Positions 2,284 through 63,656 of a DNA stretch of 64,000 bases are shown here, in pieces. Made by a program: the position numbers and the translations under genes. A model generated the notes under the pieces. That model was not told the DNA's origin, made no database searches, and was given only the letters and a program-made list of their open reading frames with translations. The stretch spans positions 248,001 through 312,000 of the forward strand of contig NZ_CP083761.1 of NCBI RefSeq assembly GCF_023558375.1, in the 5' to 3' direction. Source of the DNA: Chroococcidiopsis sp. CCMEE 29 (GTDB lineage: Bacteria > Cyanobacteriota > Cyanobacteriia > Cyanobacteriales > Chroococcidiopsidaceae). The first letter of the stretch is position 1. Each line of letters opens with the position of its first letter.

Positions 2284-2958
2284 ATGCAAATCAATACTCC
2301 TTCAGAATTAAACCCAGACCTAGAGGCTGAACGCTTGAATCAGGAAGCGACATTATCTCTAACTGAGGAACAATATCAGCGCAAAATGCAGCGACGGAAA
2401 CAAGTCCAGGAGCAGCGAGTAGCTAAAGCAGCAAGGGAAAAAGGCTTAGTTATCGTCAACACTGGCAATGGCAAGGGTAAAACTACAGCGGCTTTGGGAA
2501 TGGTATTGCGATCGCTTGGTCACGGTTATCGCGTGGCGATCGTCCAATTCATCAAGGGAGCCTGGGAACCCGCTGAAAAAGCTGTCTTCAGTCGCTGGGC
2601 CGATCAGCTGGAATTTTACGCTATGGGCGAAGGCTTTACCTGGGAAACCCAAGACCGAGAGCGAGATATCCAAAAAGCATCCGAGGCTTGGCAGACGGCA
2701 TTAACCTTCATCCGCAACCCAGATTTTAGACTAGTGCTTTTAGATGAAGTTAATGTGGCATTGAAACTGGGCTACTTGAGTATTGAGGAAGTCTTGGCTG
2801 GGTTGAAACAAAAGCCAACTGATTCTCATGTGATTCTCACTGGTAGGGGCGCTCCACCTGCTCTAGTTGAGCGGGCTGACTTAGTGACCGAAATGACACT
2901 AATTAAGCATCCTTTCCGCGAGCAAGGCGTAAAGGCGCAACCGGGAATTGAGTATTAA
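2284..2958 (+). CDS. cobO: Cob(I)yrinic acid a,c-diamide adenosyltransferase
   Basis: A 224-residue CobO/BtuR/CobA-type corrinoid adenosyltransferase. It transfers the 5'-deoxyadenosyl group of ATP to cob(I)alamin precursors in coenzyme B12 synthesis or salvage, in the cytoplasm. The P-loop GNGKGKTT is at residues 61-68, followed by the family's LRSLGHG and QFIKGAWEPAE segments, the LLDEVN Walker-B-like strand, and the LTGRGAPP motif near the C-terminus. The N-terminal ~50 residues are charged and helical, as in cyanobacterial homologues. No cobalamin riboswitch was recognised upstream. Its stop codon directly abuts the stop of the convergent gene on the other strand. Confidence 0.95.
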   Translation: MQINTPSELNPDLEAERLNQEATLSLTEEQYQRKMQRRKQVQEQRVAKAAREKGLVIVNTGNGKGKTTAALGMVLRSLGHGYRVAIVQFIKGAWEPAEKAVFSRWADQLEFYAMGEGFTWETQDRERDIQKASEAWQTALTFIRNPDFRLVLLDEVNVALKLGYLSIEEVLAGLKQKPTDSHVILTGRGAPPALVERADLVTEMTLIKHPFREQGVKAQPGIEY

Positions 2959-3558
2959 TTACTGAATTTGGTTTTTACAAGCTGCTAAAATCCGCTGGTC
3001 GTTTGCGCTGACAGAGGGGAGTTGGTGATAATTTTGTAAAGCTACCGCGTAAGGAGATGCTATTTGCTCGTAGCTATCTCCAATATGAGAGCTATCACTT
3101 GCTGTAGCAACTTTTGGAGAGTTTAGATCGTCAGCAACCGGGTCAGAATAAGGAGCTGAGCCAGGATCGTCAGCAATCATCAGAGCCAACTTTCCTGATT
3201 CAAGGGTGCCGTGAAAACAATTAAACTCTGAGCGAGGCAGATAAAATGCGCCAACCACCTTACCGTGGTGCGCCTCAAACACCATATATTCTTGCCCAAG
3301 TTGTTCTGGCTCGGGTGATTGACCATATAAATAAATCCCGTCTACCTCTGGCAGCTTTTTTCTAGGGATAATTCGGCTATCTTTTCCAAAGGCTTCAGCC
3401 CGGAAAACCAGCTGGGGCGTAGCTGTTGTTTGTAACTCTTTGGTTGTTATTGGTTTAGCTTCACTAACACCAATGCTGAACATTACATATAAGCCAACCA
3501 GCGGGGCTTCTAGCCACCAACATCCCGATGAAAAGAATTTAGTTATAGAATTAGGCAT
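2959..3558 (-). CDS. Conserved secreted protein, unknown function
   Basis: A 199-residue protein with a hydrophobic segment at residues ~14-33 that looks like a signal peptide or membrane anchor (cleavage possible after SEA). The mature part has a mixed beta-rich region (residues ~48-135, with FEAHHGKVVGAFYLPRSEF) and a Ser/Asp-rich linker. The C-terminal end, around LAACKNQIQ, resembles short cyanobacterial secreted proteins of unknown function. I do not recognise a named domain. The stop codon immediately follows the cobO stop with no spacing, so transcription of the two genes collides here. The 5' side faces the ~420-bp gap before the sigma factor gene. Confidence 0.6.
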   Translation of the reverse strand: MPNSITKFFSSGCWWLEAPLVGLYVMFSIGVSEAKPITTKELQTTATPQLVFRAEAFGKDSRIIPRKKLPEVDGIYLYGQSPEPEQLGQEYMVFEAHHGKVVGAFYLPRSEFNCFHGTLESGKLALMIADDPGSAPYSDPVADDLNSPKVATASDSSHIGDSYEQIASPYAVALQNYHQLPSVSANDQRILAACKNQIQ

Positions 3559-7178: not shown

Positions 7179-7257
7179 GGTGTCAATTGCGAACTTTGGC
7201 TGATCTTAATGTCTAATTGTCTCCCAGCACTACAAAATTGACAAACCACTACCAATT

Positions 7258-7285
7258 TTGGATTTTAGATTTTAGATTTTGGATT
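7258..7285. repeat. Short tandem heptamer-like repeat (STRR type)
   Basis: Tandem variants of ttttgga/ttttaga between the HerA-like gene and trpB. Related stretches occur at about 25642, 30657, 36918, 40421, 40627 and 60609. They resemble the short tandemly repeated sequences known between genes of cyanobacteria. Confidence 0.7.
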
Positions 7286-7359
7286 GATAAACCCTGCCCA
7301 AAATACTCTGACTCTAAACCTTTATAATTAAGGTCTATCCCGTTATCTCATCAGGTCTC

Positions 7360-8613
7360 GTGACACGTACGCCTCTTTCTTCCAACTCCCAACCAGCAGC
7401 TAACCCGCCCTCTCAAAGACCAGATACTTTAGGACGATTCGGGCAATTTGGGGGTAAGTATGTGCCTGAAACGCTGATGCCTGCTTTGAGCCAGTTGGAA
7501 GCAGCATATCAGCAATACTGCAACGATCCAGGTTTTCAACAGGAACTCCAACAGCTGTTGCGAGACTATGTAGGACGGGCAACACCACTGTATTTTGCTG
7601 AACGCCTCACTGCACACTATGCCCGACCAGATGGCACAGGACCGCAGATTTACCTCAAGCGCGAGGACTTGAACCACACAGGCGCACATAAAATTAACAA
7701 CGCCTTGGCTCAGGTATTATTGGCAAAACGGATGGGTAAGCAGCGCATCATTGCAGAAACGGGTGCGGGACAACACGGCGTTGCAACAGCAACCGTGTGC
7801 GCTAGATTCGGTCTAGACTGCGTAATCTACATGGGCGTTCAAGACATGGAACGTCAGAGTTTGAACGTGTTTCGGATGCGGTTGATGGGTGCCCAAGTGC
7901 AGCCTGTAGCAGCGGGGACAGGCACACTCAAGGATGCCACATCAGAAGCGATTCGGGACTGGGTGACGAATGTTGAAACTACCCATTACATCTTAGGTTC
8001 AGTGGCGGGACCTCATCCTTATCCAATGATGGTACGCGACTTTCATGCAGTAATTGGAAAAGAAACTCGCGCTCAGGCGCTCGAAAAATGGAGAGGATTG
8101 CCTGATATCCTCCTTGCTTGTGTAGGCGGTGGTTCTAATGCAATGGGACTATTTCACGAATTTGTGAATGAGCCAACGGTGCGGTTAATTGGGGTTGAGG
8201 CAGCGGGAGAGGGAGTCAATACAGAGAAACACGCCGCCACACTAACACAAGGGCGAGTAGGCGTATTACATGGAGCAATGAGCTATCTGCTCCAAGATGA
8301 AGATGGGCAAGTGATTGAGGCACACTCAATTAGTGCAGGACTTGATTATCCTGGTGTTGGTCCTGAACATGCACATTTAAAAGATACTGGCAGAGCTGAA
8401 TATTACAGCGTGACGGATCGAGAGGCTGTGACAGCGTTGCAGCAACTTTCCCAACTAGAAGGTATTATTCCCGCCTTGGAAACGGCTCATGCGATCGCTT
8501 ACTTAGAAACCCTCTGTCCGCAATTAAGTGGCAGTCCCCGGATTGTAATTAATTGCTCGGGACGCGGTGATAAGGATGTGCAAACCGTTGCCAAGTTTTT
8601 AAATCCTGCATAA
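7360..8613 (+). CDS. trpB: Tryptophan synthase beta subunit
   Basis: A 417-residue TrpB that condenses indole with L-serine to give tryptophan, using pyridoxal phosphate. The PLP lysine is in [12 protein letters not shown] (K111), followed by the [12 protein letters not shown] loop. The phosphate-binding GGGSNAMG loop and a C-terminal NCSGRGDKD segment are also intact. The start is GTG at 7360; no ATG is available before the conserved [13 protein letters not shown]. The first ~22 residues are a variable Pro/Ser-rich extension common in cyanobacterial TrpB. No trpA is adjacent, so the alpha subunit is encoded elsewhere. It ends 5 bp before the convergent stop of the next gene. Confidence 0.97.
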
Positions 8614-54383: not shown

Positions 54384-56402
54384 TTACCGGGATCGGAGGT
54401 CAGCGATCGCCCCCTTAGTTAATCCGGCGATCGCCTGGTCTGTAGCCTTCGGCAAGTGATAATACTTTCCACCTGCCTGTTGTGCCAGTTCCTTGGCAAA
54501 TCCAGTGGAAATAAACTTATTTTCTGTGTCAATCACTAATAGCTGCATTCCTAGCGCCCGCAGCCTGGCAGCAATTTCCAACAGTTCCCCTTTGATATCC
54601 GGCTTCTCTCCTTCCTGCAACGGTTCACCCAGCGATCGCGCTAGGGGGATATTCCCCCGCCCGTCAGTGATAGCAACAATCACCACCTGACCAATATCGC
54701 CAGACATCTGAGCATTCATCCCTACCCTCACCGCCTGAGTCAGACCATGAGCGAGAGGCGAACCACCACCGCAGGGCAACAACTCCAAACGCCGCCGCGC
54801 TAAGGCAATGGAACGAGTTGGGGGCAGAAGTACCTCCGCCTGTTCTCCCCGGAAGGGAATCAGTGCCACAGAGTCGCGGTTTTCATAGGCTTCCGTCAGT
54901 AGTCGCAACACAGCACCTTTAGCAGACTGCATGCGATTTAGTGCCATTGAGCCAGAGGCATCCACAACAAAAACAATCAGCGCCCCAGCTTTGCGGGCTA
55001 ATCGCTTTGACCGAATATCCCCCTGTTCCACAATCACCCGTCGCCCAGGTTGTCGCTCACGACGAGCTTTCTGGTAAGGGGCAGCTGCCCTGAGTGTGGC
55101 ATCAACTGCAATCCGGCGCACGGGACCTTTGGGCAACATCGGCTTGACGTAGCGCCCTCTATCTTCCGAAAAAATCAAACTGCGACTGCCAGACTTGCCT
55201 CGCTGCTTAGCCATCTGGGCAAAGTAAAGCACGCTAGGGTCGAGAATCACACCCTCTGAATCAAAGACAAACTCCTCTGGTACGCTGGGCGGCTCTTGTT
55301 CTGGTTCCTCTGGTTCCTCCTGCTCCTGCTCTTCCTGCTCTTGTTGAGATTCATCCTGGCTTGGAGGTGGTGGCGGTGGCGGTGGCGGCGCTTCTGGTGG
55401 AGTCTGCACAAGTGTTGCTCTTGGCACGATCGCCAATTCCACAGCACGACGTAAATCTTCCGCACTCACTGCTGTCCGTCCATCTAGGGCAGCTGCTGCC
55501 TTGGCAACCCGCATTGCAAACAACTCAGCTCTGTGTCCCTGCACTCCGGCGCGAATTGCTTCGTCAACTAAATAGGCGATTTGCTCATGGGTGATGTGGA
55601 CATCCTTTAACCATTCCCGCGCTAAGATAACTTGCGTTTTGAGGCTGTCGATGTCTTCGCTGTACTGACTCAAAAACTGCTGGGCTGAAGTGGCATATTC
55701 GATTGCTTGCTCTACTGCCTGGACTCGTTGATCTAATCCGAGTACAGCATCCGCTGAAAGGGCGATCGCAATTCTGTCCAACAAGTGTTCCCGCAGCGCT
55801 CCTTCTTCTGGGTTGTAGGTAGCAATGAACAGCGGCTGACAGGGATGTTGAAAACTAATGCCTTCCCGCTCAATCGAGTTGCGTCCCTCAGTTAATACCG
55901 TTAACAGGTGGTTGCTGATATTGTCATCAAGTAAATTAATTTCATCTACATACAAAACGCCTCGGTGTGCTTGTGCCAGCAATCCCGGTTGAAACATAGA
56001 TTCTCCCTGTTTTACCGATTGCTCTACATCTATAGAACCTAGGAGTCGGTCTTCTGTTACTCCGAGCGGAATTTGCACAAACGGTGCAGGAATTACTTCG
56101 GTGGGAAGTGGCGATTGACTCTCTGCCTGTGCCAATAGCTGATCGTCCCACTCCTGAGGACAGCTAGGATCGCAGTTGTAGAGGGAACCTTTAACAATTT
56201 CAATTGGTGGCAGTAGAGCGTGCAGGGCGCGAGCCATGACAGATTTAGCGGTACCGCGACGACCAGCGATCGCCACTCCCCCTAACCCTGGATCAACCGC
56301 TGCCAATAGCAGAGCAAACTTGATCGCTTCTTGACCAACTACCGCTGTCAAGGGAAATGCTGTTACTGCCGGGATATTATTAAGCACAGGCATTATTTTC
56401 AC
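54384..56402 (-). CDS. chlD: Magnesium chelatase subunit D
   Basis: A 672-residue ChlD, part of the ChlIDH complex that inserts Mg2+ into protoporphyrin IX for chlorophyll. The AAA+ half has the P-loop-like [16 protein letters not shown] and [14 protein letters not shown] Pro-run and Glu/Gln-rich acidic linker is at ~342-375. The C-terminal integrin-I domain has the MIDAS motif [11 protein letters not shown] (~476-486) and [14 protein letters not shown] 56402 is taken as start since AGGGGAG is 4-5 bp upstream; ATG 56393 is the alternative. The start overlaps the end of the upstream kinase gene by 23 bp. Confidence 0.96.
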
Positions 56403-57591
56403 TCAACTCCCCTTTCACTGCCAAAGGTAAGATTACCGTGAAGGTGGAGCCAACTCCAACTTGTGATACTAAATCTATTTTGCCTTGCAGTAGTTTTACC
56501 AGCCGACAGACGATTGCCAATCCCAGACCAGTGCTATCCGGTAAGTACGGCTGCTTGGAATCTGCTCGCACATAGGGTTCAAAGATATGGGCTTGGAATT
56601 CAGGAGCAATTCCGATTCCGGTATCGCAGACAGTGATCGCCCACTGGTCGTCGGCTAGCGTCTGGCAGGCTACTTGGATAGTTCCTGACTGAGTGTAGCG
56701 AATTGCGTTGCTGACAAGATTTGTGACAATCTGCTGTAAGCGCAAGGGGTCTGTTATCACTTCCTCAGGAGCGCGATCGCCATCAACCACTATTTGTAGC
56801 TCTTTTGGGCGCGCTAACGGTTCCAACATTTCTACAACGTTCTTGATTAATTCGCGCACATCTGTTCGTGTTGGCTGGAGTTTCATCTTCCCTGCCTCGT
56901 ACCGGGAGATTTCCAGTACATCGTTAATCAGGCGCAGTGTCTGTCTGCCACTGCGTAACACGCGCTCAATATGTTCCAGGTTGGCAGAGTTGTCCTTCAC
57001 CTGATTTTTCTGTTGTTGCCGCAAAAACAGCTCTGAGTAGCCAATGATCGAATTGAGAGGGTTTTTCAGTTCGTGGGCTAAATGAGAGAGGTTGTCTTGA
57101 TTCGCGCGCACTAAGCGAGTTAACTCCTGATTGGTAAGCGTCAACTGACTTTGCAGCTGCTCTAGTTCCTGCAACCGCTCATTTACATAACTTTTAAAGC
57201 ACTGGGCAATGACTTCATCAAGCGCAGTATCAATCAGACGGCAAGCTCGAAGTACTTCTGCCACTGAACCTTTTAGCATATCTTGCTCTAAAGTAGAAAA
57301 AATTACCCAGCGGATTAAACGGTACTCCCGCCCAATTTCTTCTGCCTCATAGCCTTGTTTAGCCCTGAGAACGCCATGTTCTAAACTCTTCTGTACCAAC
57401 GTTTTAATATCACTGTCTTCGGATTCGGATAGCATGGTTGCGATCGCCCTAAGCACAATGGGAAGGCTATCGCGCACACCCTCATACGTTAGCTGATTAG
57501 CAGCCTCGATCTGCCCATCCTGGTCAACGGCTTCAACCCAGTTCTTTACAATCGTGTCAATTTTATCGAGCAGTACTTGACTAAAATCCAT
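56380..57591 (-). CDS. RsbRD-type sensor histidine kinase (copy 1)
   Basis: A 403-residue soluble kinase. Residues ~1-145 follow the RsbRD/RsbRA N-terminal pattern (all-helical, possibly a degenerate globin-like sensor): [43 protein letters not shown] in part. A short coil leads to HisKA (H in [21 protein letters not shown]) and HATPase ([28 protein letters not shown]). No receiver or partner regulator is adjacent. Its 3' end overlaps chlD by 23 bp, so it may be co-translated with it. It is a tandem paralogue of the next gene and shares a 142-bp near-identical patch with it. Confidence 0.92.
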
Positions 57592-57728
57592 TGTGGCTCA
57601 GGCGCTAGATGAGTTAGGTGAATGAATCTCCTAGATTATTTTAGGTGAGCGATCGCAGCGTCGCATAACTCAAAGATCTCTCCGCGTCCCCGCGTCTGCT
57701 CAACTACGGCTATTCGACCGGACATATA

Positions 57729-58955
57729 TCAGGCTCCTACCTGAGTTGTTATTGCTGTTACTGCTTCTTCAGTTGTCTTGACTGCCAATGGTAAGATGAC
57801 TGTGAAAGTGGAGCCAACTCCAACTTGTGATACTAGCTCTATTTTGCCTTGCAGTAGTTTGACTAACCGAGAGACGATCGCTAACCCAAGACCATTGCTA
57901 CCGGAATTAGTGCTGCTGGAGGTAATTTGAAAGTAAGGGTCAAAGATATGAGCTTGATATTCAGGCTCAATTCCTATTCCGGTATCAGAGACAGCGATCG
58001 CCCATTGATTATCTGCTAGAAGCTGGCACGCTACTTGGATAGTTCCCGATTGGGTGTAACGAATTGCATTGCTGAGAAGATTCGTGACGATCTGCTGTAA
58101 TCGCAATGAGTCTGTTATTACTTCCGCAGGAGCGCGATCACACTCAACCAGCATTTGCAGCTGTTTCTGCTCTGCCAAAGGCGCCAACATTTCTATCACA
58201 TCTTTGATTGAAGAGCGCGGATCTAGGAGTTTTGGCTGCAATTGCATTTTCCCTGCCTCATAGCGCGAGATTTCTAGAGTATCGTTAAGCAGACGGAGTA
58301 AATGTCTGCCATTACGGCACACGCGCTCAATATGCTCCAAATTAACAAGTGTGTCCTTCAAATCGGTGTTTTCTCGGTTTTGGCGCAAAAACAGCTCTGA
58401 GTAGCCAATGATCGAATTGAGAGGATTTTTCAGTTCGTGGGCTAAATGAGAGAGGTTGTCTTGATTCGCGCGCACTAAGCGAGTTAACTCCTGATTGGTA
58501 AGCGTCAACTGACTTTGCAGCTGCTTGAATTCCCGCAATCGTTCTTCACTATAGCTTTGGAAGCAGCAGGCGATCGCTTCATCGATCACAGCATCAATCC
58601 GCCGGAAGACTCGAATCACTTGTGCAGATGGTGCTTGTAATAGCTCCGCGTCTAAAGCAGCAAAGATTACACCGCGTAGTAGACGATACTCTCGAGCAAT
58701 TTCTGCTGGATCGTAGCCTTGCTCAGCTCTGTGAATGCCATGATCTAAACTCGCCTGCACGAGCGACTTAACATCATCGTCCTGTGTCTGGGAAAGCACA
58801 GTTGCCATTGCCTTAAGCACATGCGGCATCTGATTACGCACAGCCGTGTATGACAACTCAGAAGCACTCTCGATCTGTCGGTCTTGGCGAACGGCTTCAA
58901 CCCAAGTTTCTGCGATCATCTCAGTTTTAGCAAGCAGCAATTGACTAAAATCCAT
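57729..58955 (-). CDS. RsbRD-type sensor histidine kinase (copy 2)
   Basis: A 408-residue paralogue of copy 1 with the same order: RsbRD-like helical sensor (1-~148), coil, HisKA (identical [21 protein letters not shown]) and HATPase. Start at ATG 58955 aligns with MDFSQ of copy 1; a GTG two codons earlier is possible. It differs in the sensor part and the ATP lid (TSSSTNSGSNGLGLAIV). The two genes are 137 bp apart, so they could be one transcript running into chlD. What they sense is unknown; RsbR-type domains feed general-stress pathways in other bacteria. Confidence 0.92.
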   Translation of the reverse strand: MDFSQLLLAKTEMIAETWVEAVRQDRQIESASELSYTAVRNQMPHVLKAMATVLSQTQDDDVKSLVQASLDHGIHRAEQGYDPAEIAREYRLLRGVIFAALDAELLQAPSAQVIRVFRRIDAVIDEAIACCFQSYSEERLREFKQLQSQLTLTNQELTRLVRANQDNLSHLAHELKNPLNSIIGYSELFLRQNRENTDLKDTLVNLEHIERVCRNGRHLLRLLNDTLEISRYEAGKMQLQPKLLDPRSSIKDVIEMLAPLAEQKQLQMLVECDRAPAEVITDSLRLQQIVTNLLSNAIRYTQSGTIQVACQLLADNQWAIAVSDTGIGIEPEYQAHIFDPYFQITSSSTNSGSNGLGLAIVSRLVKLLQGKIELVSQVGVGSTFTVILPLAVKTTEEAVTAITTQVGA

Positions 58956-59121
58956 CTTCACTCAGGCGCGGATAGGACGAGGTAAGGGAATCCGTTGCCT
59001 TAGGCTAGTCTAACGACTACGCATCTCCTTATAGGTATATTACGTGTAGAAACTTGTCTTCATCTAGCTGCACCACTTAGCAAATATAGCTTTTCCTGCT
59101 TAATTGAATTTAAAAAACATC

Positions 59122-59133: not shown

Positions 59134-59280
59134 GGATAACTGCTTTTGCCTACTCCGCTTCTACTCTAAATCGAAAGTTTGAGACGCAACTTTAGTCCTA
59201 GCTCTTGGGTAGGATTGACGAAAGTAAAGTTTAGCAAGTAATATATGTTAAAAGTTATTGAGTAAGTCAGCCTAATCTAG

Positions 59281-59457
59281 GCGTTCACCTTGAAAGCAGT
59301 TTGAGTACATCAAGTACAAGGTGAACCTGGAACGGAGGAACCAATATTTGGGGCATATCTTTACTTTTGTCTCTTAGGTTTAAGAGATGAAGAAAGAGGG
59401 ACATCTCTCAGTCCTAGCCCGTCAGCTAACTTCGTAGGCATTGGGAGGAGACTGAAG
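59281..59457 (+). ncRNA. c-di-AMP riboswitch (ydaO-yuaA class)
   Basis: A leader RNA upstream of the transporter operon. Conserved core segments of the ydaO-yuaA class are present in order: a first hairpin (gttcaccttg...caaggtgaac), cggaggaaccaa...ttggggca, gagggacatctctca, and the signature cccgtcagctaacttcgtag followed by gcattgggaggaga. In known members c-di-AMP binding turns transcription or translation off. The ~75-nt stretch between the switch and the permease start (59551) would hold the expression platform; no clear terminator hairpin was found, so control may be at translation. Confidence 0.85.
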
Positions 59458-59550
59458 AGACAGCATTTTTACAATGTTTTGCTCTCGTCAGTGTTCCTGG
59501 CTGGTACTGCTCGGTTTTTTGTACCTGCTCTCGACTCTGAGGAGTATAGA

Positions 59551-60399
59551 ATGACATTTCACCTAAATCTTGCCGCGATTGCGGTAGCCGGACAGACTGC
59601 GTGGAGACGTGCTAAACCTATTGTCATTCGGGATGTAGTTTTACTGCCTGCTGCTGGTTTTGTAGGGATTATTTTACTTTGGTGGGTTGTTGCCCTTGCC
59701 AACCATGAATTGATGCCTACTCCACCTGAAGCCCTGGTTGCTAATTTAGACTACATCCTCAACCCATTCTATCGGCGAGGACCGGGTGATTTAGGGCTTG
59801 GTTGGTTGCTACTGGCGAGCCTGCGACGGGTATTAATAGGCTTTTTTTTAGGGGCGATCGTGGCAATTCCCCTGGGTTTTCTGATCGGCATGTCCAAACA
59901 AGCAATGATGGCACTCAATCCCGTCATTCAGATTTTCAAGCCCGTATCACCGCTAGCTTGGCTACCCATTGCCCTAGCTATCTTCAATTTGGCTGATCCA
60001 TCTGCCATTTTTGTTATCTTCATTACTTCTTTGTGGCCCACAATTATCAATACAGCCCTCGGTGTTTCTAGTGTTTCCCAAGACTATATTGATGTATCAC
60101 GAGTGCTGGAAATGCCCAAGTGGAGAAGGATTACAAAGATTATTTGGCCAGCCAGTTTGCCCTATATTTTTACAGGCTTGCGGATCAGTTTGGGGATTGC
60201 TTGGCTTGTGATCGTCGCTGTGGAAATGCTCACCGGTGGGATTGGCATCGGCTTTTTTGTTTGGGATGAATGGAACCGCTTAAACCTGAGTTCCGTATTC
60301 CTAGCAGTGCTGGTGATTGGCGTCACAGGATTACTGCTTGACTACGCCGTTGCCCAAATTGAGTCCTGGGCGACTCACCGCCGGCGTGCTAAAGCTTAA
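59551..60399 (+). CDS. nrtB: ABC transporter permease, NrtB/CmpB family
   Basis: A 282-residue permease from ATG 59551 (GAGGAG site 7 bp upstream; an open stretch to 59479 is not family-like). Six membrane helices are visible. The EAA loop with its conserved Gly is in DVSRVLEMPKWRRITKIIWPASLPYI in part. SLRRVLIGFFLGAIVAIPLGFLIG (in part) and the final VEMLTGGIGIGFFVW are typical of nitrate/bicarbonate/cyanate-type systems. The substrate cannot be told from the permease. It is the first gene behind the c-di-AMP riboswitch. Confidence 0.9.
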   Translation: MTFHLNLAAIAVAGQTAWRRAKPIVIRDVVLLPAAGFVGIILLWWVVALANHELMPTPPEALVANLDYILNPFYRRGPGDLGLGWLLLASLRRVLIGFFLGAIVAIPLGFLIGMSKQAMMALNPVIQIFKPVSPLAWLPIALAIFNLADPSAIFVIFITSLWPTIINTALGVSSVSQDYIDVSRVLEMPKWRRITKIIWPASLPYIFTGLRISLGIAWLVIVAVEMLTGGIGIGFFVWDEWNRLNLSSVFLAVLVIGVTGLLLDYAVAQIESWATHRRRAKA

Positions 60400-60575: not shown

Positions 60576-60653
60576 GCCTCCATCAGGTAACCTTTGGCTG
60601 GAAAAGGGTAAATTTTAGATTTTGGATTAGGGTTTATCTGGTTGAATCCTCCT

Positions 60654-62060
60654 ATGAGTAATAGCACTAACTGGACGCGAAGAAGATTTCTTGAGGGTAT
60701 GGGTGCCACGGCGGCTGGGATGGCACTTTCTTCCTGTGCAATTAGCGGTGATCGCAGCGCTACAGGACTCACTGCTGAAGCCGCAGCCGTAGAACAGGTG
60801 GTAGACCCCAGCACGTTGGAAAAACCTAATTTGACCGTGGGATATGTTCCAGTCAATGACTGTGCACCGTTTGCGATCGCCTGGAAAAAAGGATTTTTCC
60901 GCAAGTACGGTCTAAACGTCAGACTCAATCGGGAGGCTAGCTGGGCAACTTCTCGCGACGGGATTATCTTTGGGCGGACTGATGCCGCACCCGTTGTATC
61001 TGGGGCAGTAACCAATGCCAGAATTGGAGCCGAAGGCGCACGCCATGCACCGTTGTGTGCTGCTATGACGATTCACCGCCACGGCAACGCTATGACGATG
61101 AACCGGGCAATGTGGGAGGCGGGGCTGCGCCCTTGGCGGGAGTACAACGGCGATTTGGAAGCGTTTGGGCGTGATTTTAGACGCTACTTTGACAACCTGC
61201 CAGCGGAGCAGCGTGTTTGGGCAGTGGTGCTGAGTTCAGCCATCTATGAATACTTTATCCGCTACTTATCTGCCGCTGCTGGTGTCGATCCACTGAAGGA
61301 GTTTCGGGTTATTATCATTCCGCCACCTCAAATGGTGACTAACGTGCGAATTGGGGCGATGCAGGCTTACATGGTGGCAGAACCCTGGAATACACGCGCC
61401 ATCGCTGGGAATGAAGGTGTTGGCTTTACCTTTGCTCAAGGCAAAGAAATCTGGTTGGGACACCCAGACCGGCTGCTTGGGGTGCTGGAAAGCTTTATTG
61501 AAAACTACCCCAAAACCTATCGTTCGCTGGTTAAGGCAATGATTGAAGCCTGCCAGTATTGCAGCAAACCTGAAAACCGTGAAGAGGTTGCTAAACTAAT
61601 TTCTGAGCGTTCGTTTACCGCTGCTAAGCCCCAATTTACCCGACCGGGGATCGTGGGCGAATACAACTATGGTGGGTTTGATGGTCAAAAACGAATTGCC
61701 GAATCCCTAGACACGACAATTTTCTTCAACATACCTAAAAACATTCCTCAACCGCCGGGAGCACACTCTACGTTTCTTTGGCGTTCTCATAGTATCTGGT
61801 TGATGACTCAAGCAGCTCGTTGGGGACAAATCAAAGCATTCCCAAAAAATGCCGAACAAATTGCTGAACGAGGCTGGAAAACCGATCTCTATCGTGAGAT
61901 TGCCGCGGAACTGGGGATCGAGTCTCCGAAGGAGGATTATAAAGTGGAACCGCCAGAAGTATTCATAGACAACAAAGGCTTTGACCCTAGCGATCCAGTC
62001 GGCTATCTCAATAGTTTTGAGATCAAGGCTAATCGTCCTACTCGCTTCTTCATGTCATAA
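60654..62060 (+). CDS. nrtA: ABC transporter substrate-binding protein, NrtA/CmpA family
   Basis: A 468-residue lipoprotein from ATG 60654. Twin-arginine-type start TRRRFLEGMGATAAGMALSSC with the lipobox Cys, then a spacer and the NrtA/CmpA fold: LTVGYVPVNDCAPFAIAWKKGFF in part, ASWATSRDGIIFGRTDAA, YMVAEPWNTRAI, and GHPDRLLGVLESFIENYPKTYRSLVKAMIEA in part. Nitrate, bicarbonate and cyanate binders all share this fold; the ligand residues were not resolved, so the nrtA symbol indicates family only. It has no clear ribosome site and is separated from the permease by a 254-bp repeat-filled gap. Confidence 0.87.
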   Translation: MSNSTNWTRRRFLEGMGATAAGMALSSCAISGDRSATGLTAEAAAVEQVVDPSTLEKPNLTVGYVPVNDCAPFAIAWKKGFFRKYGLNVRLNREASWATSRDGIIFGRTDAAPVVSGAVTNARIGAEGARHAPLCAAMTIHRHGNAMTMNRAMWEAGLRPWREYNGDLEAFGRDFRRYFDNLPAEQRVWAVVLSSAIYEYFIRYLSAAAGVDPLKEFRVIIIPPPQMVTNVRIGAMQAYMVAEPWNTRAIAGNEGVGFTFAQGKEIWLGHPDRLLGVLESFIENYPKTYRSLVKAMIEACQYCSKPENREEVAKLISERSFTAAKPQFTRPGIVGEYNYGGFDGQKRIAESLDTTIFFNIPKNIPQPPGAHSTFLWRSHSIWLMTQAARWGQIKAFPKNAEQIAERGWKTDLYREIAAELGIESPKEDYKVEPPEVFIDNKGFDPSDPVGYLNSFEIKANRPTRFFMS

Positions 62061-62091: not shown

Positions 62092-62931
62092 ATGACTAAA
62101 TCTACTTCTTTTCTTACTAATGCTAATGAGATAGACGCTAGCCGCACGGGATTTCTAGAAATCGAAAATCTAGTCAAGTCCTATCCAACACCTACTGGAG
62201 ATGAGTTTGTCGTTCTTAATGGCATCAATCTTACCGTCAGTGAAGATGAATATATTTCTGTAATTGGGCATTCTGGTTGCGGCAAATCGACACTGCTGAA
62301 GATTGTAGCTGGTTTAGAAAAAGCAACTTCTGGCTCAGTGCGACTAGATGGGAAAGAAATTCGGAAGCCTGGCGCTGAGCGGATGATGGTGTTTCAACAC
62401 TATTCACTGCTGCCTTGGCTGACGGTGCGAGAAAATATTCGGCTGGCTGTGGATGAAGTGCTGAAAAAAGCCACTCGTGCTGAAAAAATTAGCATTGTGA
62501 ATGAACACTTGGCAATGGTGAACTTGACAGCGGCAGCTGACAAATATCCAGATGAGATTTCTGGGGGGATGAAACAACGGGTCGGTATTGCTAGAGCTTT
62601 GGCAATTCGCCCTAAAATGTTGCTGATGGATGAACCGTTTGGAGCACTGGATGCACTAACTCGTGGTAAATTGCAGCGGCAGGTGCTGAATATTTGGGAA
62701 AACCATCGCCAGGCAGTGATGATGATTACCCATGATGTGGATGAAGCGATTTATATGTCTGATCGCATTGTCTTAATGACGAATGGTCCAGCTGCCACGA
62801 TTGGGGAAATTTTGGAAGTGCCTTTTCCGCATCCACGCGATCGCCAAGCAATGCGGACCTCCAAGGATTATATGGAACTGCGCAACCACGCACTGAATTT
62901 CCTAGATCGCTATTTCACTCAAGACGAGTAG
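62092..62931 (+). CDS. nrtD: ABC transporter ATPase, NrtD-like
   Basis: A 279-residue ATPase of the NrtD/SsuB group that powers the upstream permease. It has the Walker A GHSGCGKST (~63-71), Q-loop VFQHYSLLPW, signature ISGGMKQRVGIARAL (~162-176), Walker B MLLMDEPFGALDAL and switch His in MITHDVDEAI. Unlike NrtC it has no fused solute-binding domain. It is 31 bp after the binding-protein gene with an AGGAG site before the ATG. A single ATPase would form a homodimer. Confidence 0.93.
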   Translation: MTKSTSFLTNANEIDASRTGFLEIENLVKSYPTPTGDEFVVLNGINLTVSEDEYISVIGHSGCGKSTLLKIVAGLEKATSGSVRLDGKEIRKPGAERMMVFQHYSLLPWLTVRENIRLAVDEVLKKATRAEKISIVNEHLAMVNLTAAADKYPDEISGGMKQRVGIARALAIRPKMLLMDEPFGALDALTRGKLQRQVLNIWENHRQAVMMITHDVDEAIYMSDRIVLMTNGPAATIGEILEVPFPHPRDRQAMRTSKDYMELRNHALNFLDRYFTQDE

Positions 62932-62969: not shown

Positions 62970-63656
62970 GTGAATATCAAGCCGATGTTAATGCGTCTGC
63001 AAAGCGCCATAGGCAGTCAAGACTTAATTGAACAAATGGTGTTACTGCCAGAACCGGTTTCACAACCTTATGGTGGGGCTAAATCTACAAAAGCAGTTAA
63101 CTTAGTCGTCGGCTATAACAGCTCCCCCAAAAGTCAAACCGCTTTAGATATTACCTTGTGTATTGCTCATCAAACACGCTTAGCGACTCAGAAGCAAGTC
63201 ACAGTGCATGTTGTCTACGTCGTAGATGACCATCAAAACATCAATTGTCCAGATTTCTTTAACATGACTGATGCCAACAGTGGCTCAATTGCTTGGAATC
63301 AATTAAAATCTCCAGCAGTTGCATTAAGGTGTGCCACACCCGTGTTGCCTCAACTAAGAGCTAAGGCGCTAGCAGCGCAGCCATGCATAACGCCCGTAGA
63401 TTTATTCGATCAAGCAGACAAAATTTTATGGCAAGCACGTTGTCTAGCTGAGGAATGGGGAGGTGCCTTTATTGCTCATCTGCGGTTTGGTTGCATTGCT
63501 GCTCAATTGAGAAAAGTTGTTGAATCAGAAGCTGCCGATGTACTCTTGCTAGGCTGTAACTCGAGCAATCATCCAATTGTTCAGAAACTAGATTGTAACT
63601 TCCCCTGCACGGTGCTAGGTATGCCCACGATGCTGAGAGAAGCAAAACAAGTATAA
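62970..63656 (+). CDS. UspA-like (universal stress) protein
   Basis: A 228-residue protein starting with GTG 62970 (GAGG site upstream), 38 bp after the ATPase gene. The Usp fold is read from NLVVGYNSSPKSQTALDITLCIA (in part; strand and first helix), VTVHVVYVVDD, and the late VVESEAADVLLLGCNSSNHPIVQKL in part, where the G-2x-G-9x-G ATP motif is degenerate. Operon position suggests a regulator or accessory of the transporter. Similar Usp genes follow transporter operons in other cyanobacteria. Confidence 0.75.
   Translation: MNIKPMLMRLQSAIGSQDLIEQMVLLPEPVSQPYGGAKSTKAVNLVVGYNSSPKSQTALDITLCIAHQTRLATQKQVTVHVVYVVDDHQNINCPDFFNMTDANSGSIAWNQLKSPAVALRCATPVLPQLRAKALAAQPCITPVDLFDQADKILWQARCLAEEWGGAFIAHLRFGCIAAQLRKVVESEAADVLLLGCNSSNHPIVQKLDCNFPCTVLGMPTMLREAKQV

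Follow-up and report, generated by a model that had tools for sequence, protein, structure and literature searches.

A c-di-AMP riboswitch precedes an orphan nitrate-family ABC transporter operon across the cyanobacteria

In many bacteria, c-di-AMP serves as an osmotic and potassium messenger, and to our knowledge, few of its gene targets have been characterised in cyanobacteria. The characterised members of the ABC transporter family that includes NrtABCD bind nitrate, bicarbonate or cyanate. The window analysed here, i.e., the whole stretch of 64,000 nucleotides from the genome of Chroococcidiopsis sp. CCMEE 29, joins the two subjects in a single locus and raises the question of which solute such a transporter would import under the control of a c-di-AMP riboswitch. 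The preliminary description of this DNA had read the leader as carrying a ydaO-yuaA core and as preceding nrtB-, nrtA-, nrtD-like and Usp genes; the gene models, their order and their shared strand agree with that account. The features of the locus are as follows.

57729-58961, minus strand: divergent RsbRD_N histidine kinase gene (PF14361, HisKA, HATPase_c).
59215-59244, plus strand: promoter-like pair TTGACG-18 nt-TAATAT, from a consensus scan, ending upstream of the aptamer.
59262-59455, plus strand: c-di-AMP (ydaO/yuaA, RF00379) riboswitch aptamer, from the Rfam match with the 5' end corrected by alignment.
59270-59274, plus strand: 5' strand of P1, GCCTA, with its partner TAGGC at 59435-59439, from the sequence and the alignment with relatives.
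59447-59497, plus strand: conserved leader hairpin A, to which the aptamer contributes its 3' tail, between the aptamer and nrtB.
59503-59525, plus strand: conserved leader hairpin B, GGTAC/GTACC.
59551-60399, plus strand: nrtB-like permease gene (TIGR01183, 244 bits, cut-off 209), its ATG preceded by GAGGAG.
60654-62060, plus strand: gene of an nrtA-like substrate-binding lipoprotein (NMT1_2, PF13379, 210 bits), ATG at 60654 with the frame open from TTG at 60642.
62092-62931, plus strand: nrtD-like gene of an NrtC/D-type ATPase of 279 aa (TIGR01184, 364 bits, cut-off 292).
62970-63656, plus strand: usp-like gene with a GTG start (Pfam Usp, 22.5 bits, cut-off 24; USP fold in the predicted model).

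When the 64 kb window was searched with cmscan for all Rfam families, which includes the check with RF00379 that had been set beforehand, RF00379 (c-di-AMP riboswitch) was the sole match above the gathering score, at 59309-59455 on the plus strand (63.6 bits, E 2e-12; gathering score, 38 bits). The stretch cccgtcagctaacttcgtag, on which the earlier assignment had drawn, is the 3' core of the aptamer (59418-59437). The start assigned to the element at that stage, 59281, falls a few bases inside the aptamer: in an alignment of 30 copies (the window copy and 29 others from the host genome and its family), the homologous aptamers start at AGCCTAAT, window positions 59269-59276, and the relatives place the 5' end near 59262. 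Judged from this alignment, the real extent is about 59262-59455, a long hairpin arm at about 59276-59328 having displaced the 5' end of the Rfam alignment. Every position that is invariant among the 30 homologues, in the conserved core (GGAGGAACC, GGGG and CCCGUCAGCUAAC) and in the closing P1, is intact in the window. The aptamer lies in the sense orientation relative to the operon, about 96 nt 5' of the ATG at 59551, with a similar spacing in relatives. By these sequence features, the leader is an ordinary member of RF00379, predicted to bind c-di-AMP; a diadenylate cyclase is encoded in the host genome. The whole genome contains two RF00379 copies, including the window element, and the genome scan found none at the genome's own nrt and cmp clusters.

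The combination of riboswitch and operon recurs with great regularity. RF00379 is present in all 19 genomes of the host's family, and in 15 of the family loci fetched, it lies directly before nrtB of this operon. With the binding protein as the query, 80 loci were fetched from named cyanobacteria, including Aliterella, Fischerella, Nostoc, Microcoleus, Oscillatoria, Phormidesmis and others; among the 78 with enough upstream sequence, the riboswitch is located just before nrtB in 77, of which 75 were identified by motif within 350 nt of nrtB and two (L084 and L087) by Rfam. The single exception is L059, a metagenome-assembled genome. The motif calls were confirmed by Rfam in the loci scanned, and the loci that appeared riboswitch-free in the first motif search (L057, L070-L072, L084, L087, L103 and L126) all turned out to possess the element when Rfam or a longer motif gap was applied. 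In a second set, consisting of 34 genomes chosen for encoding cyanase, the riboswitch precedes nrtB in 12 of 12 complete operon copies (G025, G056 and G087, which end at a contig edge, were left out). The association between the riboswitch and the operon is thus near-universal and phylum-wide. A second riboswitch belonging to usp itself was found in 57 of the 69 loci that have usp after nrtD (Rfam-confirmed where scanned), and in L028 and L029, a lone usp is preceded by a riboswitch. The gap between nrtD and usp in the window is 38 bases, so that usp here would depend on the first riboswitch. That almost all of the loci examined have this target, and that their clusters often hold two riboswitches, points to a core function. 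Degraded copies were seen as well: L043 has an internal nrtB-nrtA deletion, L045 a permease-nrtD fusion after the riboswitch, and G146:C7:1961235-1962240 an nrtA fragment between two riboswitch-like elements. In the draft genome of L039, nrtB (2521-3351) is spread over three frames, due to either a pseudogene or assembly errors.

The four genes are arranged in the order nrtB-nrtA-nrtD-usp downstream of the aptamer. The NrtB-like permease is about 78-87% identical in most relatives. The NrtA-like protein begins with a twin-arginine motif followed by a lipobox (RRRFLEGMGATAAGMALSSC; RRRFL ... LSSC), i.e., a Tat-type signal that makes its export as a lipoprotein likely. The NrtC-type C-terminal regulatory domain is absent from the operon, whose only ATPase is the 279-aa protein. 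The Usp-like protein scores slightly below the Pfam cut-off in the window, and two of its relatives reach 32-36 bits, above the cut-off; its predicted model (mean pLDDT 72) yields Foldseek matches to universal stress proteins with E values down to 5e-7, and resembles both TeaD, which belongs to the ectoine transporter TeaABC, and the USP domain of KdpD in its c-di-AMP-bound form. This model, of moderate confidence and poorly predicted in mid-chain, supports the fold and no function. The alignment of the C-terminal part of the protein shows no ATP-binding USP motif G-2x-G-9x-G(S/T).

The explanation that we favour and consider probable is that the RF00379 switch controls nrtB-nrtA-nrtD-usp as a unit encoding an orphan nitrate-family importer of an osmotic anion, which is off at high c-di-AMP. 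Transcription would proceed from the promoter near 59215-59244 through the riboswitch and the four genes; the transporter would add a third importer from the nitrate/bicarbonate ABC family to the NrtABCD and CmpABCD of this genome; and the cargo would be a small anion of osmotic use, e.g., the counter-ion of potassium. When c-di-AMP is high, the aptamer would close and expression would be lowered, and when it falls, the importer and Usp would be made, with Usp probably tuning the transporter. Given that the riboswitch stands before the same transporter across the phylum, an osmotic signal probably controls the uptake of a small anion via this operon. According to surveys, the targets of the ydaO-yuaA class are transporters of many kinds that probably have osmotic roles (PMC3766115), and a counter-ion importer seems to be a reasonable guess because, in Lactococcus, c-di-AMP governs counter-ion osmolytes besides potassium (PMC8092236). 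The preliminary description had tied the uptake of nitrate, bicarbonate or an unrecognised osmolyte to c-di-AMP; the tie itself is supported by the phylum-wide link, nitrate and bicarbonate have become less likely, and the unrecognised osmolyte is the better option. The ligand of this importer would reveal which solute is managed through c-di-AMP in cyanobacteria, and would put right the label of nitrate transporter that sequence models give to these genes.

Among the alternatives, the one that fares best, although we consider it rather unlikely, is the import of an organic anion or osmolyte, such as a sulfonate or a similar compound, in place of an inorganic ion. The NMT1-like superfamily takes in SsuA and TauA, both of which appear lower in the Foldseek list of the binding protein, and a connection of c-di-AMP riboswitches to osmoprotectant genes is given in a passage of PMC5986932, both in general (Nelson 2013 as cited there) and for those of cyanobacteria. 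However, the closest proteins by sequence and by fold are all NrtA, CmpA or NrtC-type domains, and the Foldseek list is headed by the regulatory domain of CmpC, from a crystal obtained with nitrate, and by NrtA. On this protein, the sulfonate-binding model reaches 27 bits against a cut-off of 163, and beyond it only the general NMT1_2 model matched. An anion is still the likeliest ligand class, with neither nitrate nor bicarbonate favoured.

The direction of control could also be opposite to the one proposed, with the riboswitch acting as an on switch at high c-di-AMP, which we consider unlikely. Four promoter-like pairs were found by the consensus scan versus 1.9 expected in the region; the pair at 59215-59244 ends upstream of the aptamer, in disagreement with a transcription start downstream of the element, the finding that the preliminary description had named as speaking against its reading, and a TTGAC element occupies the same position in most family relatives. 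The pair and the recurrence of TTGAC together imply that the transcript should contain the whole riboswitch. Downstream of the aptamer, hairpin A has 98% of the cells of its outer helix paired across 21 loci, with double-sided changes in 5 cells of the structure tested, and is kept through G-U pairs in L032 and L036; in the same number of loci, hairpin B has 94% of cells paired, with one-sided changes only. The region following the aptamer yielded no terminator, the sole terminator-like site falling inside nrtB, so that control would be exerted at translation initiation or through an unrecognised transcriptional mechanism. Two other pairings were considered and rejected: hairpin C (CAGTG..CC with GG..TACTG), as a terminator-type platform, shows 0 double-sided changes and no covariation, and the alternative pairing of the aptamer segment CTCTCAGTC with the tail GACTGAAGAG, which looks good in the window by inspection, is undone by the divergence of the tail in L032 and L036. 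With no recognisable terminator-type platform, and with conserved hairpins that alone give no direction, the leader would accommodate an on switch. Against this stands the general rule that the validated c-di-AMP riboswitches of importers are off switches. In particular, kimA and ktrAB of B. subtilis, which belong to the same class, are repressed (PMC7288161), and by analogy, the element described here is probably an off switch through which c-di-AMP represses the operon.

Distinctly unlikely, in our assessment, is that the operon encodes a third nitrate/nitrite importer, with c-di-AMP coupling nitrogen uptake to the ionic state. The NrtB and NrtD models do score above their curated cut-offs, and the best fold matches listed above point the same way; as the nearest solved relative by fold, the regulatory domain of CmpC, comes from a crystal obtained with nitrate present, nitrate stays in play. 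However, the genome has a clear, separate NrtA orthologue (642 bits to 2g29), just as it has one of CmpA (650 bits to 2i48), and NrtC and CmpC accompany these orthologues, whereas the operon is devoid of an NrtC subunit. The binding protein of the operon is 28-32% identical to the NrtA and CmpA of the genome and is nearer in sequence to the regulatory domains at the C-terminal ends of NrtC and CmpC. In the maximum-likelihood tree, its 17 members form a single clade with support of 100/100, separate from both NrtA/CmpA and the proteins adjoining cyanase; this clade joins the NrtC/CmpC domains with support of 91/83, over long branches such that the join may be false. The pocket, as read from the sequence alignment, differs from that of NrtA: in all 17 aligned members, H196 is replaced by Tyr and K269 by Arg, the latter still basic, the pocket Trp is kept, and Q155, which we take to be a nitrate contact in NrtA, is Asn in the aligned members. 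In NrtA, the balancing of the nitrate charge is attributed to these two basic residues, K269 and H196 (PMC8786288). The cyanase-adjacent binding proteins, which form another clade, have Cys at the K269 position, and there is no cyanase beside the operon, the cynS of the genome being located far away, at C1:3929695. On the tree and the pocket residues, we rejected an assignment of the binding protein to NrtA, CmpA or CynA; the separate NrtA and CmpA orthologues, the distinct clade and the altered pocket make nitrate and bicarbonate less likely as cargoes.

Even less probable is the import of bicarbonate, which would tie c-di-AMP to the carbon-concentrating mechanism. The operon belongs to the same ABC family as CmpABCD, and the carbon regulator SbtB binds c-di-AMP (PMC12313861; reviewed in PMC10117731), but the genome already has its CmpA orthologue, and where CmpA has Glu, at the K269 position, all members have Arg, CmpA requiring a calcium ion for bicarbonate (PMC8786288). 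That the riboswitch is decayed or bypassed by transcription starting downstream is hardly credible: the window copy has 63.6 bits compared to up to 86 in the family, a lower score for which the long insertion in the 5' hairpin accounts, but the invariant positions are intact and promoter-like elements lie upstream of the aptamer.

The importer of an osmotic anion that we propose shares traits with several known systems. With kimA and ktrAB, the locus has in common the aptamer core, the sense orientation and the position in the 5' leader of a transporter operon; there the target is a potassium transporter, however, whereas here it is a nitrate-family ABC importer without a recognisable terminator, and many relatives have two or more riboswitch copies per cluster. 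The permease, ATPase and binding-protein families are those of NrtABCD and CmpABCD, from which the operon differs in the order B-A-D, the lack of an NrtC/CmpC subunit, the separate binding-protein clade and the changed pocket. CynABDS also consists of A, B and D transporter genes without a C subunit, and the three-gene composition is thus the same as in this operon, but the binding proteins beside cynS belong to the other clade and no cyanase adjoins the operon. In Halomonas elongata, the ectoine TRAP transporter TeaABC is encoded together with the USP TeaD, as is the case here, and TeaD is among the best fold matches; TeaABC represents another transporter class than this ABC operon, and regulation by the Usp of the operon is putative.

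Genes surrounding the operon in relatives suggest a broader interpretation. A CitMHS/ArsB-type permease, which we suspect to be the counterpart of Synechocystis Slr0753, is found after usp or before nrtB in relatives, in several cases behind a riboswitch of its own, and is absent from the host genome. As cited in PMC10117731 from Mantovani 2022, slr0753 of Synechocystis, encoding a putative chloride efflux protein, has a c-di-AMP riboswitch; the riboswitch class is the same and the organism also a cyanobacterium, whereas the riboswitch in the window drives an ABC operon instead. Of the 80 named loci, 57 encode a related RsbRD_N-type N-terminal domain close to the operon. Tentatively, and as a serious candidate, these genes may form a phylum-wide anion-homeostasis module under up to three c-di-AMP riboswitches, in which the orphan importer, Usp replacing the NrtC-type domain, an anion exporter of the CitMHS/ArsB type and the divergent kinase would handle an osmotic anion. 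If this is true, the cargo would be an osmotic anion so far assigned to no transporter of the nitrate/bicarbonate family. Usp is an attractive candidate for a substitute of the NrtC-type regulatory domain. What seems to be new here is that the association is near-universal, that a second copy frequently precedes usp, that a wider module can be proposed, and that the binding protein forms an orphan clade, which is not NrtA/CmpA; the operon itself may already stand in the target tables of earlier riboswitch surveys. In the window, two adjoining, similar RsbRD_N histidine kinase genes occupy 56380-58961 on the minus strand, and one counterpart is conserved beside the operon in many relatives.

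Several c-di-AMP riboswitches were observed in front of other genes. The other copy of the host (G000:C1:1171160-1171341; L001) precedes the gene of a 69-aa protein (MLRVGDVVLHQ...) that has no Pfam or NCBIfam match and a homologue of which also follows a riboswitch in L004. In L008, L009, L015, L022, L024 and L025, the riboswitch precedes the gene of a conserved 66-74-aa protein, M(K)NYYKQWILLAKQELNG..., for which the copy searched, that of L008, gave no family match. In L006 and L059 (2488-4115), the riboswitch is located before the gene of a family 4 glycosyltransferase that scores 281 bits as MshA-like, below the cut-off of the model, and is more weakly similar to sucrose-phosphate synthase. 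Finally, in L158, a cobalamin riboswitch (7192-7389) lies at a distance of a few hundred bases from the c-di-AMP riboswitch, on the other strand.
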